Assembly: GCF_020622345.1 (NCBI RefSeq)
Contig: NZ_JACNMO010000001.1
Location: 248,001 to 312,000 of the forward strand
Direction of reading: 5' to 3'
Origin: Roseobacter weihaiensis
Lineage (GTDB): Bacteria > Pseudomonadota > Alphaproteobacteria > Rhodobacterales > Rhodobacteraceae
Length of the DNA: 64,000 nucleotides
Position numbers and translations under genes: made by a program. Of this stretch, positions 9,243 through 14,867 are shown piece after piece. Numbering within the stretch: the stretch's first letter is position 1; the number at the start of each line of letters is the position of its first letter. The notes beneath the pieces are model-generated. The model was not told the DNA's origin and did not search any database. It saw only the letters and a program-made list of their open reading frames with translations.

Positions 9243-11219
9243 TCAGCGCTCGGTGAATTTCAGCTCAATTCGACGATTTTGCGCACGCGCTTCAGGGGTA
9301 TTGCCCAAAGCGACCGGCTGATACTGCCCGAAACCATTTGCGGACAGGCGCTGCGGCGGAATACCCAAGGCATCCACCATGTATTTCACCACCGACAGCG
9401 CCCGGCCCTGGCTCAGCGCCCAGTTATCGGCAAATTGACCTGCACCAGAGAGGGGCAGATCATCGGTATGCCCATCCACGCGAATGATCCAATCGATTTC
9501 CGGTGGAATTTCATCCACCACGCTCGAAATGATCTCGGCCACCTTGCCGATCTCCTCGCGCCCCTCCGCCGATAGATCCGCCCGCGCCGGCTCAAACAGC
9601 ACTTCGGACGAGAAGACGAACCGATCTCCCTCGATGCGCACCCCTTCCTGCCGCCCCAGAACATCGCGCAGGCGGCCGAAAAACTCTGATCTATATTGCT
9701 CAAGATCTTTTGTTTCCTGGGTCAGCCGTTCCGCCTCTGCCGCCAGACGCGCGGCTTCTTCTTCCAGCCTGATGCGCTCCGCCTCTTCAAGCTGGGCGCG
9801 ACGGCGTTCCTCAGCCGCAACCCGCGCAAGCGCCGTGTTCAACTCCGATCCAAGCGATTGCAGCTGCACCTGCTGGGCAGCATCGCGGTCGCGGGCATCA
9901 TCCAGCAAAGCCTGTAAATCCCCCAATTGCGCCCGCAGCGCAGCAACTTGCTGATTGAGCAACTCGGTCTGACGCTGTGCTGCGGCACTGTTTTCTTCCT
10001 CTTCGGCCAAGGCGTTCCGCGCTTGCGCCAAAAGAGCCGCCCGCCGCTGCGCTTCTGTCGATGTGTCTTCGGCAAGAATCTCTGCGGCGCGTTGGGCGGC
10101 AAGGGCATTGGCCAGTTGCGTGCGCAATGTTGCATCATTCTGCGCCTCCTCAGCCAACGTCTGGACCTGAGCTTCGGCCGCCGCCCGCGCGGCGGCCTCC
10201 AAGGCCGCGCGGGCCTGTGCTTCATCAAGGTCCGCCAGCACTGCGCTCAGACGCGCGGCCATTTCCTCCTGACGCGCCTCCAGGGCTGCGAGCGCGGTTT
10301 GCGCAGTCTCGCCCTCAGCAACCTGGCCTTCAAGGCGACCTATTTCCAACAGGGCCGCTGCCAAAGCCGTGTCGAGCTCAGCCTCTGCAGCACGCGCCGC
10401 GGCCAACAACGTCAGTGTATCCTCCGCCTCCTGGCGTTGCCGCTCAAGCGCCAAGGTCATCGCCGTCAGCTCCGCGTCAGCGTCCTGAAGGCGCGCGCGC
10501 AAAAGCTCTGCCGCGGCGGCCTCTGTCAAGCGGGCGGCTTCTTCGGCGCTGAGGGCTTGCTGTGTTTCGTCCAACTGACCGCTCAAGGTCTCGATCCGGC
10601 CCTGCGCATCCGCGTTGCGGGCGCGCAAGTCGGCCACCAATGCGTCCAGCGCTTCGCGACGGGCCGCTGCAAGACGGGCCGCCTCGGCCTGTGCGTCAAC
10701 CTCCTGACGCGCGGCGGCAAGCGCAAGGTTCAACGCCTCACGCTCTTCCATCAACTCGGCCTGGGCGGTCTCCAGCGCCTGCTGGGTTTCTTCAAGCGAG
10801 GTGATGGTACCCAAGGCCCTGTCGCGTTCCGAGATCAAGGCGGCGACCTGTGCTTCAAAGCCCGTGATCCGGGTTTCCGCTTCGGACAGAGCCTCGGCCT
10901 GAGCATTCCGTGCGGCAGTCAGTGCCGCGATACGCGCCTCGGCATCCGTCAAGGTGGCGTCCAGCTCCCCGACACGGGTGCGCAACCGGTCGCTGGTCTG
11001 CTCTTCCAGACCCAGGGCTTCGGCCAGGGCGGCCACCTCGCCCGCAAGCTGATCCAACTGTGTCTCCTGCCCCGTGATCCGCTCAGTCAGCACGAATTGC
11101 ACGATCATAAAGATCGTCAGCACAAACATCAGCACCAGCAACAGGCCGGTCATCGCATCGACGAAACCGGGCCAGATAGAGGCCTGAAACCGCGTACCTG
11201 TGCGTCGCGACAGCGCCAT
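9243..11219 (-). CDS. MotB/OmpA-family stator-like protein with giant periplasmic coiled coil
   Basis: 658 residues in three parts. Residues about 17-45 are a single membrane helix beginning WPGFVDAMTGLLLVL; Asp21 sits where MotB carries its essential proton-binding aspartate (the ADFMT motif). Residues about 46-510 are almost unbroken Ala/Glu/Gln/Arg-rich heptads, predicting a coiled coil of several hundred residues in the periplasm. Residues about 520-658 are an OmpA/MotB peptidoglycan-binding domain (VDGHTDDLPL ... NRRIELKF). Flagellar MotB is about 300 residues, so the linker is greatly enlarged. The start codon overlaps the stop of the MotA-like partner by one base (TGATG), so the two are translationally coupled. 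Its role is unknown; a proton-driven envelope machine is the best inference. Confidence 0.85.
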   Translation of the reverse strand: MALSRRTGTRFQASIWPGFVDAMTGLLLVLMFVLTIFMIVQFVLTERITGQETQLDQLAGEVAALAEALGLEEQTSDRLRTRVGELDATLTDAEARIAALTAARNAQAEALSEAETRITGFEAQVAALISERDRALGTITSLEETQQALETAQAELMEEREALNLALAAARQEVDAQAEAARLAAARREALDALVADLRARNADAQGRIETLSGQLDETQQALSAEEAARLTEAAAAELLRARLQDADAELTAMTLALERQRQEAEDTLTLLAAARAAEAELDTALAAALLEIGRLEGQVAEGETAQTALAALEARQEEMAARLSAVLADLDEAQARAALEAAARAAAEAQVQTLAEEAQNDATLRTQLANALAAQRAAEILAEDTSTEAQRRAALLAQARNALAEEEENSAAAQRQTELLNQQVAALRAQLGDLQALLDDARDRDAAQQVQLQSLGSELNTALARVAAEERRRAQLEEAERIRLEEEAARLAAEAERLTQETKDLEQYRSEFFGRLRDVLGRQEGVRIEGDRFVFSSEVLFEPARADLSAEGREEIGKVAEIISSVVDEIPPEIDWIIRVDGHTDDLPLSGAGQFADNWALSQGRALSVVKYMVDALGIPPQRLSANGFGQYQPVALGNTPEARAQNRRIELKFTER

Positions 11220-12403
11220 CAGCCGTCTCCTGGGGCCGCTTTACCCAGAGGTCGCGGACGACGGGGTTTCAACGCTTCAGCGAGTTTGTTGATATCCGTG
11301 CGCAGTTCGGCGACACTTTCCTGCCGTCCGGCAGAGATCTCTTCCAGAATACGCAGCATCTGCACATCGATTGACCGCAGGCGCATCCGGCTTTCGGCAT
11401 CGATGCCTTCCCCCTGACCCTGCGCCTCGAAGAGTGAAATCAGGCGCTCCTGCCCCGCCGCAACCCGTTCCAGCGCCGCACTGGAGGGGTCAGAGCCTTC
11501 CATGCGCTGGGTCATCCGTTCGATGGAGCTTGCCAGCCCCCCCAGTGTTTCGTTGACCTCCGCGCGGCTGGTATCGGACTGCAGAAACATCTCCTGCAGG
11601 GTGATCATTTGCTCGGCCATGTGATCCACGACACCTGCCAGCACATTCTGGTCACCTGAGGCATCCTCGCCCGAGGTAAACCCGACCCGCGTGATAGAGC
11701 TGAGCCATTCTTCAAGCTCCCGGTAGAACCGGTTTTGACCATGGCCTGCAAAAAGCTCAAGCAACCCGACAATCAGCGAGCCTGCAAGGCCCAGCAGCGA
11801 GGAGGCAAAAGCCACCCCCATGCCGCCTAACTGCGCTTCAAGCCCGCTCATCAGGCGGTTGAAGACATCGACACCGCCTTCCCCATCCTGCGGGGCCAGA
11901 CTGCGGATGGTGTCGACCACCGCGGGCACGGTCGTGGCCAAGCCATAAAACGTCCCCAAAAGGCCGAGGAAGATCAGCATGTTGACAATGTAGCGTGTGA
12001 TCTCTCGCGCCTCGTCGATCCGCGTGGCCACGGAATCGAGAATGGAGCGGGTGGAGGAGGCACTGACCTGCATCCGCGCCCCGCGCTGGCGCAACAAAGA
12101 GGCCAAGGGCGCCAGCAAAAGCGGTGGCTGCATGCTGCCATCGAGCCTGTCGGTGGCAAAGCGCTCAATCCACCGGACAGAGCTGATCAGTTGGAAAACC
12201 TGATAAAAACAGGCCAACACCCCGATGAAAAACACGAAGATGATAAAGCCATTCAGATAGGGGTTCGCCTGAAACACCGGCAAGACGCGTGGCAAGGCCA
12301 GAAATCCGCCAAACCCGGACAGGGCGAGGACGATCAGCATCAGGGAGATTTGCCGCACCGGTTGTGAAAAGACTGGTCTGGTCTCTTGGTCTGGTAAGGC
12401 CAT
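11219..12403 (-). CDS. MotA/TolQ/ExbB-like proton-channel protein
   Basis: 394 residues. Four hydrophobic segments are visible: about 18-45, 47-75, 135-165 and 190-225, the last two being the conserved MotA/TolQ pair (LIFLGLLGTFYGLATTVPAV and GLEAQLGGMGVAFASSLLG). A cytoplasmic tail of about 170 residues follows, with helical, coiled-coil-like character. Together with the downstream MotB-like protein this would form a proton-conducting inner membrane complex. The pairing resembles the ZorA/ZorB motor of Zorya defence in outline, but no ZorC, ZorD or ZorE gene is nearby and flanking genes are housekeeping, so a defence role is not supported here. Flagellar motA is unlikely because no flagellar genes are adjacent. 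Confidence 0.82.
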   Translation of the reverse strand: MALPDQETRPVFSQPVRQISLMLIVLALSGFGGFLALPRVLPVFQANPYLNGFIIFVFFIGVLACFYQVFQLISSVRWIERFATDRLDGSMQPPLLLAPLASLLRQRGARMQVSASSTRSILDSVATRIDEAREITRYIVNMLIFLGLLGTFYGLATTVPAVVDTIRSLAPQDGEGGVDVFNRLMSGLEAQLGGMGVAFASSLLGLAGSLIVGLLELFAGHGQNRFYRELEEWLSSITRVGFTSGEDASGDQNVLAGVVDHMAEQMITLQEMFLQSDTSRAEVNETLGGLASSIERMTQRMEGSDPSSAALERVAAGQERLISLFEAQGQGEGIDAESRMRLRSIDVQMLRILEEISAGRQESVAELRTDINKLAEALKPRRPRPLGKAAPGDG

Positions 12404-12478: not shown

Positions 12479-13009
12479 TTATGAGCTGAGTGCGCGAACT
12501 CGCTGACTGAGCCATTCAAGGTCAGGGTCATGCAGGCCGATCTCGCTCAAATGCTGGGCCGTGTTGTAGAGGTATTCGGTGTTCGGCCCCATCCCCCCGA
12601 TGGCGGTTGCGATGATCCGGGCCTGCTCTTCCAGCGGCAGGCCCCCGCAATACTGCACATGGTCAGGGCTGATGACATAGGCAAGTGCCAAAACCCGCCG
12701 CCCATCGGTCAGATCAATCTCCAATTCCCGCTCCAGATACGCGGACGAAATCAACTCACGCTCCCGCAGGTAGGTCAGTGTTTGCGCCTCGTGCCCCGCC
12801 TTTACCGCCAGCGCCACCCCTTCGCAGACATGCGCAGGCTCTTCGTCAAGTGCCAGCACTAGGCCCGGATGCGTTTCCGTGCCACGGTGGTGAATGGAGC
12901 GCATGCAAAAAGACCGCGCGTAGCCGGGCAGCGTGGCGATCACCTTTTCTGCAACCTCAAAGCCCGGATTCCACAGCAGGCTGCCATATCCGAATACCCA
13001 CATTGTCAT
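12479..13009 (-). CDS. ChaC-like gamma-glutamylcyclotransferase
   Basis: 176 residues from ATG 13009, which follows AAGGAG after ten bases; an ATG two codons later is less well placed. The N-terminus MTMWVFGYGSLLWNPGF is the diagnostic YGSL motif of the gamma-glutamylcyclotransferase fold, and the later ELERELEI-like stretch (AYLERELEI) supplies the conserved acidic residue. ChaC enzymes cleave glutathione to 5-oxoproline and Cys-Gly in the cytoplasm. It is transcribed in the same direction as the MotA-like gene but separated from it by 75 bases. It is divergent from the DUF2125 gene, with 65 bases between starts. Confidence 0.88.
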   Translation of the reverse strand: MTMWVFGYGSLLWNPGFEVAEKVIATLPGYARSFCMRSIHHRGTETHPGLVLALDEEPAHVCEGVALAVKAGHEAQTLTYLRERELISSAYLERELEIDLTDGRRVLALAYVISPDHVQYCGGLPLEEQARIIATAIGGMGPNTEYLYNTAQHLSEIGLHDPDLEWLSQRVRALSS

Positions 13010-13074
13010 CGCTCTGGTTCTCCTTGCCTGCATTGCGTAAACCTCAAATCAGCGCGAAACGGAAGAGGTCACTT

Positions 13075-14079
13075 ATGCGGCGATTGGTCTGGTTGGCAGT
13101 GGTCTTTGCCCTGTTGTGGAGCGGATGGTGGTTTTTCGCCGCCTCGACCCTGCAGGCCGGGATTGAGGCTTGGCTCGCAGAACGGCGCGGCGAGGGCTGG
13201 CAGGCCGAGGTCACCGAGATCAGCATGAGCGGCTACCCCAATGCACTGGACGCCGTTCTGCAGCGCCCGGTGCTGGCCGATCCACAAACCGGTGTGGTGT
13301 TCGAGGCCTCTTCCCTGCGCATCAACGCCTCGGCCTTCTGGCCGGGTTTTGTCAGCCTGGTGTTTCCAGCCGATGAGATGATTTTTGCCAGTCCGGAACA
13401 ACGCAGGACAGCAATCGCCCAGGACGCTGTCGCTGATCTGCGCCTGCATCCGGGCACCGATTTGGAACTGGAGGAAATGGCGCTGACGGCAGGGCTCTGG
13501 ACCCTTGCGGCCCCCGAGGGCACGGTTCTGGGGGCCCGGGCGCTTACCTTACGCATGCGTCAAGACGCCGAGGACCCGACCCTCTATGATCTCATGCTGG
13601 ACGCCCCGGCCTTTCAACCCGGCAGCGTGCCACGGCGTGCCTTGCGTGTCCCGGCCGACTGGCCCGTGACCTTCGACAGCCTGGCGCTCGATATGTCGGT
13701 CGCCTTTGATCGCGCGGTGGATCGCACGGCGATCGAGGTCTCTCGCCCGCAGCCCCGCCGGATTGACCTGCGGCTGGCGGAAGCGGTCTGGGGAACGCTG
13801 TTGATCCGCAGTGCGGCGACGCTTGATGTGGCAGAAACGGGCCTGCTGAGCGGCGAGGTCTCGCTTCAGGCCCGCAACTGGCAGGATATGCTGACACTGG
13901 CGGAAAGCGCCGGCACGCTGCCCTCAGCGATGCGTCCGCAAATCGAGAATGTGCTCAGCGCACTTGCCCGGTCGGGGGGCAATCCCGATACAATTGACGT
14001 GACCATCGCGATCCGCGAGGGGACCATGTTCATGGGGTTTGTCCCGCTGGGCGCCGCACCACGGCTGATCCTGCGCTAG
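13075..14079 (+). CDS. DUF2125-type exported protein
   Basis: 334 residues from ATG 13075 behind GGAAGAGG. Residues about 5-22 (VWLAVVFALLWSGWWFF) form an uncleaved-looking N-terminal membrane anchor, followed by a periplasmic domain rich in beta-prone segments. The opening after the anchor (LQAGIEAWLAERRGEGW) and the repeated beta pattern match the DUF2125 family of alphaproteobacteria, whose function is unknown. The 3' end overlaps the converging extensin-like gene by four bases. Family assignment is from memory of the pattern, so it is moderate. Confidence 0.72.
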   Translation: MRRLVWLAVVFALLWSGWWFFAASTLQAGIEAWLAERRGEGWQAEVTEISMSGYPNALDAVLQRPVLADPQTGVVFEASSLRINASAFWPGFVSLVFPADEMIFASPEQRRTAIAQDAVADLRLHPGTDLELEEMALTAGLWTLAAPEGTVLGARALTLRMRQDAEDPTLYDLMLDAPAFQPGSVPRRALRVPADWPVTFDSLALDMSVAFDRAVDRTAIEVSRPQPRRIDLRLAEAVWGTLLIRSAATLDVAETGLLSGEVSLQARNWQDMLTLAESAGTLPSAMRPQIENVLSALARSGGNPDTIDVTIAIREGTMFMGFVPLGAAPRLILR

Positions 14080-14867
14080 CGGCAATAGGGACCGCTTCGG
14101 TACCGCGCGGTATCGAAATGGAAGTGATCGAGGTGAAACCGGTCTGAGTTCGGACCAAGCACGGTCCCAAAAGGACCGCAGGCCCCACTGTGCAGGCGGC
14201 GCATCACCTGCGCCGTGTTCGCCCCATTCCAGCCGTTGCGCACGGTGATCAGCGTGCCGTCCCGCAACCGCACCCCGGAGATATCGATCGCACGGCCCTT
14301 GCCATGCTCGGAAATACGTCCGCCGGGCCGGTTGTTGCGCGTGCGACAGACATAATGCGCCGCCACCCGGAGGCTTTTGAGCCCGCCGCCGCTGCGCCGC
14401 AGGGTGGGCTTGGCGGTTTCATCCACCCATGTCTTGAGCGCTTGCGCCGTTGTGCAGTCCATGACGGCGCGCTGGCTCAGGGTGACCCCGGAGACGGTCC
14501 GGACCCGGACGGCGTTTTCTATGCCACAGCCGTTTTGACGCCCCGCAACGCGCCCCACGACCTCTCCCTGAATGTCGAGATCACCGCAGACCGCGCCCCG
14601 CTGGCGCAGCCTTTCCTGTTCGCGCGCGATGCGGCGAAACCTGCGCGGGCGCAATTCAGGTCTGAGCGACGCGACCATCCCCTGCCCGCGCCCCGCAGCA
14701 GCCACCGCCGCCGCATCCCGCCGGCGCGGCGCAATCGCTCCGGACGGCTCCAGCGTCACGCCCGAGCCCGCATTGACCCCGGCCCTTGCCACGGGCCGCA
14801 AAGAGGCTTCGGGGGCGGCACTCGCAACACCGCCCAAAAGCATCAGGGCGACCATCAACCGCTTCAC
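14076..14867 (-). CDS. Extensin-like domain protein, probable periplasmic peptidoglycan enzyme
   Basis: 263 residues. Residues 1-18 are a signal peptide (MKRLMVALMLLGGVASA). The C-terminal half carries SEHGKGRAIDISG and SDRFHLDHFHFD, the metal-ligand pattern of the extensin-like C-terminal family, which is related in fold to VanY/M15 peptidases; cysteines near CGDLDI, NGCGIENA, DCTTA and GACGP suggest disulfides. A low-complexity Arg/Ala linker fills residues about 45-95. The start overlaps the TyrA stop by four bases, so it is the third gene of hisC-tyrA-extensin. The link to aromatic and histidine synthesis is positional only. Confidence 0.8.
   Translation of the reverse strand: MKRLMVALMLLGGVASAAPEASLRPVARAGVNAGSGVTLEPSGAIAPRRRDAAAVAAAGRGQGMVASLRPELRPRRFRRIAREQERLRQRGAVCGDLDIQGEVVGRVAGRQNGCGIENAVRVRTVSGVTLSQRAVMDCTTAQALKTWVDETAKPTLRRSGGGLKSLRVAAHYVCRTRNNRPGGRISEHGKGRAIDISGVRLRDGTLITVRNGWNGANTAQVMRRLHSGACGPFGTVLGPNSDRFHLDHFHFDTARYRSGPYCR

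Follow-up and report, generated by a model that had tools for sequence, protein, structure and literature searches.

The gene pair and its two proteins

We analysed a window of 64,000 nucleotides of Roseobacter weihaiensis DNA. Two adjacent genes on its minus strand, here termed A and B, encode a putative ring subunit and a putative axle subunit, respectively (Table 1). Both open reading frames were intact and shared one base at a TGATG junction, as a preliminary description made from the sequence had reported. The closest named relatives were Roseobacter insulae and Roseobacter sp. WL0113 (81–82% in A), and an Rfam scan of the A–B locus gave no match. Coupling between A and B is strict: in 40/40 diverse loci, B followed immediately downstream of A, and 20/20 genomes without A also had no B (B was found in 4/4 controls).

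Table 1. Positions of the A–B genes, their predicted parts and the adjoining gene in the window
Feature	Position	Strand	Length	Remarks
Gene A	12403..11219	-	394 aa	MotA/TolQ/ExbB/ZorA-like ring subunit
A residues 139-218, two pore-lining helices	11750..11989	-		FLGLLGTFYGL and GMGVAFASSLLGLAGSL
A residues 252-378, cytoplasmic helical tail	11270..11650	-		AlphaFold2
Gene B	11219..9243	-	658 aa	MotB-like axle subunit, NCBIfam PRK09039 member
B residues 16-44, WPGFVD motif and membrane helix	11088..11174	-		Predicted ion-binding Asp21 at 11157-11159
B residues 46-508, proline-free coiled coil	9696..11084	-		AF2 helices 19-225, 231-383, 391-522
B residues 280-390, length-variable coil middle	10050..10382	-		Most large indels here
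B residues 541-649, OmpA-like peptidoglycan-binding domain (predicted)	9273..9599	-		GHTD and NxxLSxxRAxxV motifs
chaC-like gene	12479..13033	-		Directly upstream of A, 75 bp gap

Four hydrophobic segments were present in A, at about residues 19–37, 52–70, 139–157 and 197–215. The AlphaFold2 (AF2) model of A showed helices matching these segments and a helical cytoplasmic tail (pLDDT 81), in agreement with the four membrane helices and long tail described earlier; the AF2 models of both A and B were of single chains. The pore motifs FLGLLGTFxGL and GMGxAFxSSLxGLAGSL were near-invariant in the homologue alignment. Across 50 homologues, residues L146–F152, G154, L155, S202, G205, L206 and G208–L210 were invariant, as were GLLGT and the predicted Thr/Ser ring residues T151, S202 and S209. 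The length of A ranged from 258 to 453 aa family-wide and the tail varied, indicating that it is not a constant part of A; its C-terminal segment was partly conserved, and the tail was short or missing in several A proteins (258–301 aa).

The ZorA1 profile was matched by 50/50 A homologues (best 1.5e-16) and by Roseobacter A itself at 7.3e-10. In Foldseek, the nearest structures to the A model were TolQ, ExbB and ZorA (probability 1.00, E 1e-3 to 1e-2, none below 1e-3). Pfam MotA_ExbB (PF01618) scored 18.1 bits on A, under the gathering cut-off of 22.9, and at E<1e-3 it matched 14/50 homologues, with Roseobacter A outside those 14. No significant match was obtained when the A profile was aligned with single TolQ or MotA sequences using hhalign, a PDB sequence search with A gave no match, and the reverse search of true ZorA with the A profile yielded 12 bits. 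The comparison with Zor, Mot and Tol profiles recommended in the preliminary description returned distant matches to ZorA1 and ZorB3, and neither A nor any of its 50 homologues obtained a TolQ, TolR or MotA family score. Because the Pfam, Foldseek and hhalign scores were weak, the assignment of A as a motor subunit rests on its motifs, its topology, the ZorA profiles and its partner B. Elsewhere, the genome encodes TolQ–TolR, another ExbB-like protein and a flagellar MotA1; A is therefore its fourth A-type gene. A 248-aa ExbB/TolQ-like protein of the same genome (G000:C57:66475-66771; L002:1408-2154) had no family score above any cut-off and is thus one more motor-type protein without an assignment.

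In B, Asp21 lay within 'SIWPGFVDAMTG', and a single hydrophobic helix was located at residues 26–44. The membrane Asp claimed in the preliminary description was confirmed. Its loss in homologues, which would have argued against the proposal, was not seen: the Asp of WP[GA]xVD was present in 40/40 diverse B proteins and invariant in their 40-row alignment. The C-terminal OmpA domain described earlier was recovered by Pfam (61 bits, E 1.3e-16); its peptidoglycan motifs were kept in B homologues (GHTD in 114/116 and NxxLSxxRAxxV in 111/116), and Foldseek matched the C-terminus to the MotB/OmpA structures 3khn (E 3e-11) and 3td5. The ZorB3 profile matched B at 8.7e-24, mostly over this domain. B scored 890.2 bits against NCBIfam PRK09039 'peptidoglycan -binding protein' (equivalog cut-off 388), with a full-length alignment of B residues 1–658 on model positions 1–627 (NF006542-NF006546), and 40/40 B homologues matched the same family. 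The preliminary description had regarded membership in a characterised family as evidence against it. B does belong to PRK09039 by name; a search of the accessible literature turned up no functional work on PRK09039 and no genetic, biochemical or structural data for it. PRK09039 is a family that is named but uncharacterised.

The coiled coil of B

B was proline-free from residue 46 to 525, and the coil proper covered about 463 residues, close to the roughly 460 estimated previously. In 79 Rhodobacteraceae homologues, LIVMF made up about 50–77% of two heptad phases and 1–21% elsewhere (residues 46–200), and the range observed was 0.57–0.77 versus at most 0.19 with random registers. Prolines were counted twice in 39,837 coil residues of these homologues and never in 7,783 residues of 37 non-Rhodobacteraceae loci. 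The heptad register, counted from Asp21, was conserved across all homologues. The coil of B is far beyond chance.

We defined the coil as the stretch between the Asp and the OmpA domain and converted its length at 0.1485 nm per residue, if straight. Across the whole family, it ranged from about 111 to 795 residues (17–118 nm if straight), i.e., about seven-fold. The 37 non-Rhodobacteraceae loci had coils of 111–405 residues, with a cluster at 143–149 residues (21–22 nm) in 12 diverse loci; the 79 Rhodobacteraceae had coils of 331–795 residues (49–118 nm; median rod 71 nm), and the Roseobacter rod would measure about 70 nm if straight. The near-constant length in the 12 loci would suit a passive ruler or spacer that fixes the distance between membrane and wall, with ion flow secondary. 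However, 49–118 nm in Rhodobacteraceae and a seven-fold overall variation cannot be one ruler; a fixed ruler is ruled out by this variation, and we consider the broader spacer explanation quite improbable.

Among 37 independent sequence pairs, 71/135 coil indels were multiples of seven versus 19 expected (p 1.5e-25), with no enrichment at any other modulus tested. Multiples of seven accounted for 32/36 indels in residues 45–280 and 21/27 in the last part, i.e., 53/63 (84%) at both ends; in the middle, where indels were much larger, they accounted for 18/72. The heptad-multiple indels at both ends suggest that the coiled-coil seam is under selection and coil length is not, with length and middle drifting. 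Recent tandem duplication was ruled out as the origin of these indels, since 0/43 inserted 7- or 14-residue units were at least 80% identical to their neighbour at the DNA level; mutation in periodic DNA, by older or biased slippage, could have contributed part of them.

The periplasm is about 20–25 nm deep; therefore, the median rod of 71 nm, if straight, cannot stand upright. The earlier reading of the coil as a measure of reach across the periplasm was not supported: its length varies while the seam is kept, and the Rhodobacteraceae rods exceed the periplasm. In the AF2 monomer of B, the coil was broken at residues 226–230 and 384–390 (pTM 0.35), and a zig-zag of three helices of 20–31 nm is possible in this model. 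Seam-preserving indels fit a parallel dimer and an antiparallel hairpin alike, and thus do not decide between the two.

A variable rod length is more in keeping with a tether than with a shaft, and A–B might be a gated sensor and not a motor. Contact of the OmpA domain with the wall would open an ion channel, and the signal would pass via the cytoplasmic tail of A, whose helical form and partly conserved C-terminal segment fit such a role. In addition, Zorya has been modelled as activated by ZorB binding peptidoglycan (PMC11890865). However, the several A proteins with a short tail or none, together with a neighbourhood that contained no conserved signalling gene, make this explanation unlikely.

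Distribution, neighbourhood and a third gene

The A profile matched 198/289 sampled alphaproteobacterial genomes, almost always in single copy and including reduced genomes of 0.7–0.9 Mb. A was also found in a few other Pseudomonadota; for example, L172 (G371) and L173 (G437) are A–B pairs outside Alphaproteobacteria within the same phylum. One clear Rhodobacteraceae locus (72% in A) came from a record titled Nocardioides marinus (JAHVJD010000004.1), a mislabelled or contaminated assembly. MotA1 was present in 158/289 genomes: 117 had both MotA1 and the pair, 81 the pair alone, 41 MotA alone and 50 neither. The 81 genomes with the pair and without MotA1 indicate that A–B is independent of flagella. 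A spare flagellar stator could be suggested by the MotB-like C-terminal domain of B and by a weak association of the pair with MotA1 across genomes (odds ratio 1.8, p 0.03, from genome counts ignoring kinship). However, the 81 and 41 genomes holding one without the other, the separate MotA1 locus in the genome itself and the absence of flagellar neighbours leave this explanation extremely improbable.

No phage record matched A–B. Matches in the plasmid collection were confined to five records, all of them non-mobilizable rhizobial replicons of 3.5–4.6 Mb. A 3.7-Mb record, CP090106.1, is labelled pSymB of Sinorhizobium meliloti; it carries purE, rpmE and suhB-A-B and therefore looks like the chromosome under a wrong plasmid label. 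The idea that A–B is an antiphage system of the Zorya type that has gone unrecognised would agree with the matches of 50/50 A proteins to ZorA profiles and of B to ZorB profiles. However, A–B is core, single-copy and syntenic and had no match in phage records or on mobile plasmids, the genome has no ZorA1 match at 1e-20, and no ZorC-, ZorD- or ZorE-like gene was among the identified neighbours of A–B, which upholds the earlier statement that no such partner is nearby; we regard a defence role as very improbable. A search with EH_Signature (ZorC) matched nothing anywhere, controls included, and is uninformative about ZorC.

The neighbours in the window were gloB, clpA (identified from sequence), chaC, and DUF2125, extensin-like, tyrC-like and hisC genes. 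None is a flagellar or defence gene, as had been claimed; the pair is not generally solitary, since a conserved third gene lies upstream of it in most other Alphaproteobacteria. In Rhodobacteraceae, chaC was upstream of A–B in 83/83 loci, at a median distance of 74 bp, and clpA was nearby. The link of chaC to A–B is probably co-transcription only. The pair is essentially always alone in this family, a point that the preliminary description had suggested checking. Near A–B, the window also carries an extensin-like C-terminal protein (14076-14867) and a divergently oriented DUF2125 protein (12685-14079); DUF2125 was conserved beside A–B in 81/83 Rhodobacteraceae loci.

The gene order in other Alphaproteobacteria was (gap-pgk-fba-thiE)-efp-suhB-...-A-B. 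Among the 37 non-Rhodobacteraceae loci, suhB was found in 29, efp in 26 and an MsbA-like gene, mostly downstream, in 22. A further gene, here termed X, often lay between suhB and A, giving the cluster efp-suhB-X-A-B. X codes for a protein with a signal for export, the motif VxV[DN]xxxLdxL and a linker rich in Pro (9–31%), and its C-terminal domain is OmpA-like (PF00691); the GHTD Asp, present in 114/116 B proteins, was absent from this domain in 17/17 X proteins. No NCBIfam model accepted X. Examples among loci L144–L183, in A-oriented coordinates, are L146:5323-5940 and L162:4928-5956.

An X profile matched 167/289 alphaproteobacterial genomes. In 116/116 genomes in which both genes could be placed, X immediately preceded A on the same strand, within 200 bp in 110. 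X was detected in 131/198 A-genomes (odds ratio 3.0, p 3.5e-5, kinship ignored) and not in the other 67, and 36 genomes had X without A, indicating that X is not obligatory. In Rhodobacteraceae, X was missing, with only weak matches near 1e-11 in 5/101 genomes, and the OmpA proteins of the Roseobacter genome were of other types. Coil length had no simple relation to the presence of X (X-bearing coils, 111–352 residues). From these comparisons, A–B usually has the third gene X upstream, an arrangement that appears to be ancestral and lost in Rhodobacteraceae, whose solitary pair is the derived state. This loss is why the preliminary description missed X and the efp-suhB context.

The constant X-A-B order, in which an exported protein rich in Pro immediately precedes A in all 116 genomes, and the Pro content of the linker would be expected if X were a Pro-rich rod acting as a TonB/TolA-like force transducer driven by A–B. 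However, the N-terminus of X resembles a signal peptide with no evident SHLS-type anchor helix, Rhodobacteraceae keep A–B without X, and the genome has its own TolQR. We therefore doubt that A–B is a Tol/Ton-type energiser of this kind.

Proposed mechanism and comparison with known systems

A–B is a real, widespread and unstudied family of putative motors. We lean towards the interpretation that it is an ion-driven 5:2 motor of the envelope with a housekeeping, Tol-Pal-like task and a rod anchored to peptidoglycan. A and B would form an ion-driven motor in the inner membrane, in which five A subunits probably surround two B helices and ions may pass Asp21 of B against the Thr/Ser ring of A. 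Two B chains would extend as a coiled-coil rod ending in the OmpA domain on peptidoglycan; because the rod ends there, the motor would work mechanically between the inner membrane and the cell wall. The ancestral unit would comprise the three genes X-A-B, with X, exported, Pro-rich and with a non-canonical OmpA domain, probably connecting the motor or the wall to another part of the envelope. In Rhodobacteraceae, X would have been lost and the rod lengthened to 49–118 nm; since such a rod cannot stand upright, it would have to run alongside the wall or be folded back on itself. By analogy, we think that the task resembles that of Tol-Pal, i.e., energised upkeep of wall–membrane attachment in growth or division. 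The preliminary description had proposed a proton-driven machine with a far reach; an ion-driven A/B motor related to MotAB/TolQR/ZorAB, peptidoglycan-binding and with its Asp retained, remains our reading, and the reach was dropped.

A bolder proposal, which we advance tentatively and with less than even confidence, is that X-A-B is an unrecognised ion-driven machine spanning the envelope, which belongs to the core of Alphaproteobacteria and differs from Mot, Tol, Ton, Gld and Zor, and whose peptidoglycan-anchored rod in Rhodobacteraceae is freed in length and runs laterally along the wall for up to about 120 nm. Cells use ion-driven 5:2 motors to swim, to glide, to take up nutrients, to maintain the outer membrane and to resist phages. 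Among Alphaproteobacteria, the class of rhizobia and marine roseobacters, A–B is a core system in single copy, and its Rhodobacteraceae form is a derived extreme that poses a physical puzzle, namely a putative rod with three to five times the length of its space, its seam strongly selected and its length not.

Flagellar MotAB, PomAB and MotPS share the four-helix topology of A, and the best solved match of B is a MotB-like peptidoglycan-binding domain; unlike them, A–B has no MotA family score, occurs in genomes without MotA1 and has a coil of 111–795 residues. TolQR(A)-Pal and ExbBD-TonB contain the nearest folds of A and are non-flagellar envelope energisers, and Tol-Pal also acts on peptidoglycan attachment. 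However, TolQ and ExbB have three membrane helices whereas A has four, TolR and ExbD have neither an OmpA domain nor a long coil, and TolQR of the same genome is encoded at a separate locus. In Zorya, modelled as a peptidoglycan-bound 5:2 motor, the likeness to ZorA–ZorB extends to the core and tail of A, which match ZorA profiles distantly, and to the Asp near residue 21 and OmpA-type peptidoglycan domain of B; in contrast, A–B consists of core chromosomal genes without ZorC/D/E, and its long rod lies in periplasmic B and not in the tail of A. GldLM/PorLM likewise have an axle subunit with a long periplasmic shaft (18 nm in GldM, PMC9389320), although GldM has folded periplasmic domains and no OmpA domain and is restricted to Bacteroidota. 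PRK09039 differs in that its definition leaves out partner A and gene X. Judged from sequence, A–B appears to work like TolQR or ZorAB and to be a member of neither, having no TolQ/TolR scores and no Zorya effectors. Relatives with the ion-path residues of A–B are 5:2 ion-driven motors whose complex is anchored by a peptidoglycan-bound axle (PMC9389320, PMC11890865). A recent survey sorts 5:2 motors by their wall anchor: flagellar ones have one of the OmpA type, and the B subunits of non-flagellar ones lack it (PMC12505986). A–B, non-flagellar and with a TolQ/ZorA-like A, yet carrying a predicted OmpA anchor, would break this division as an exception besides Zorya.
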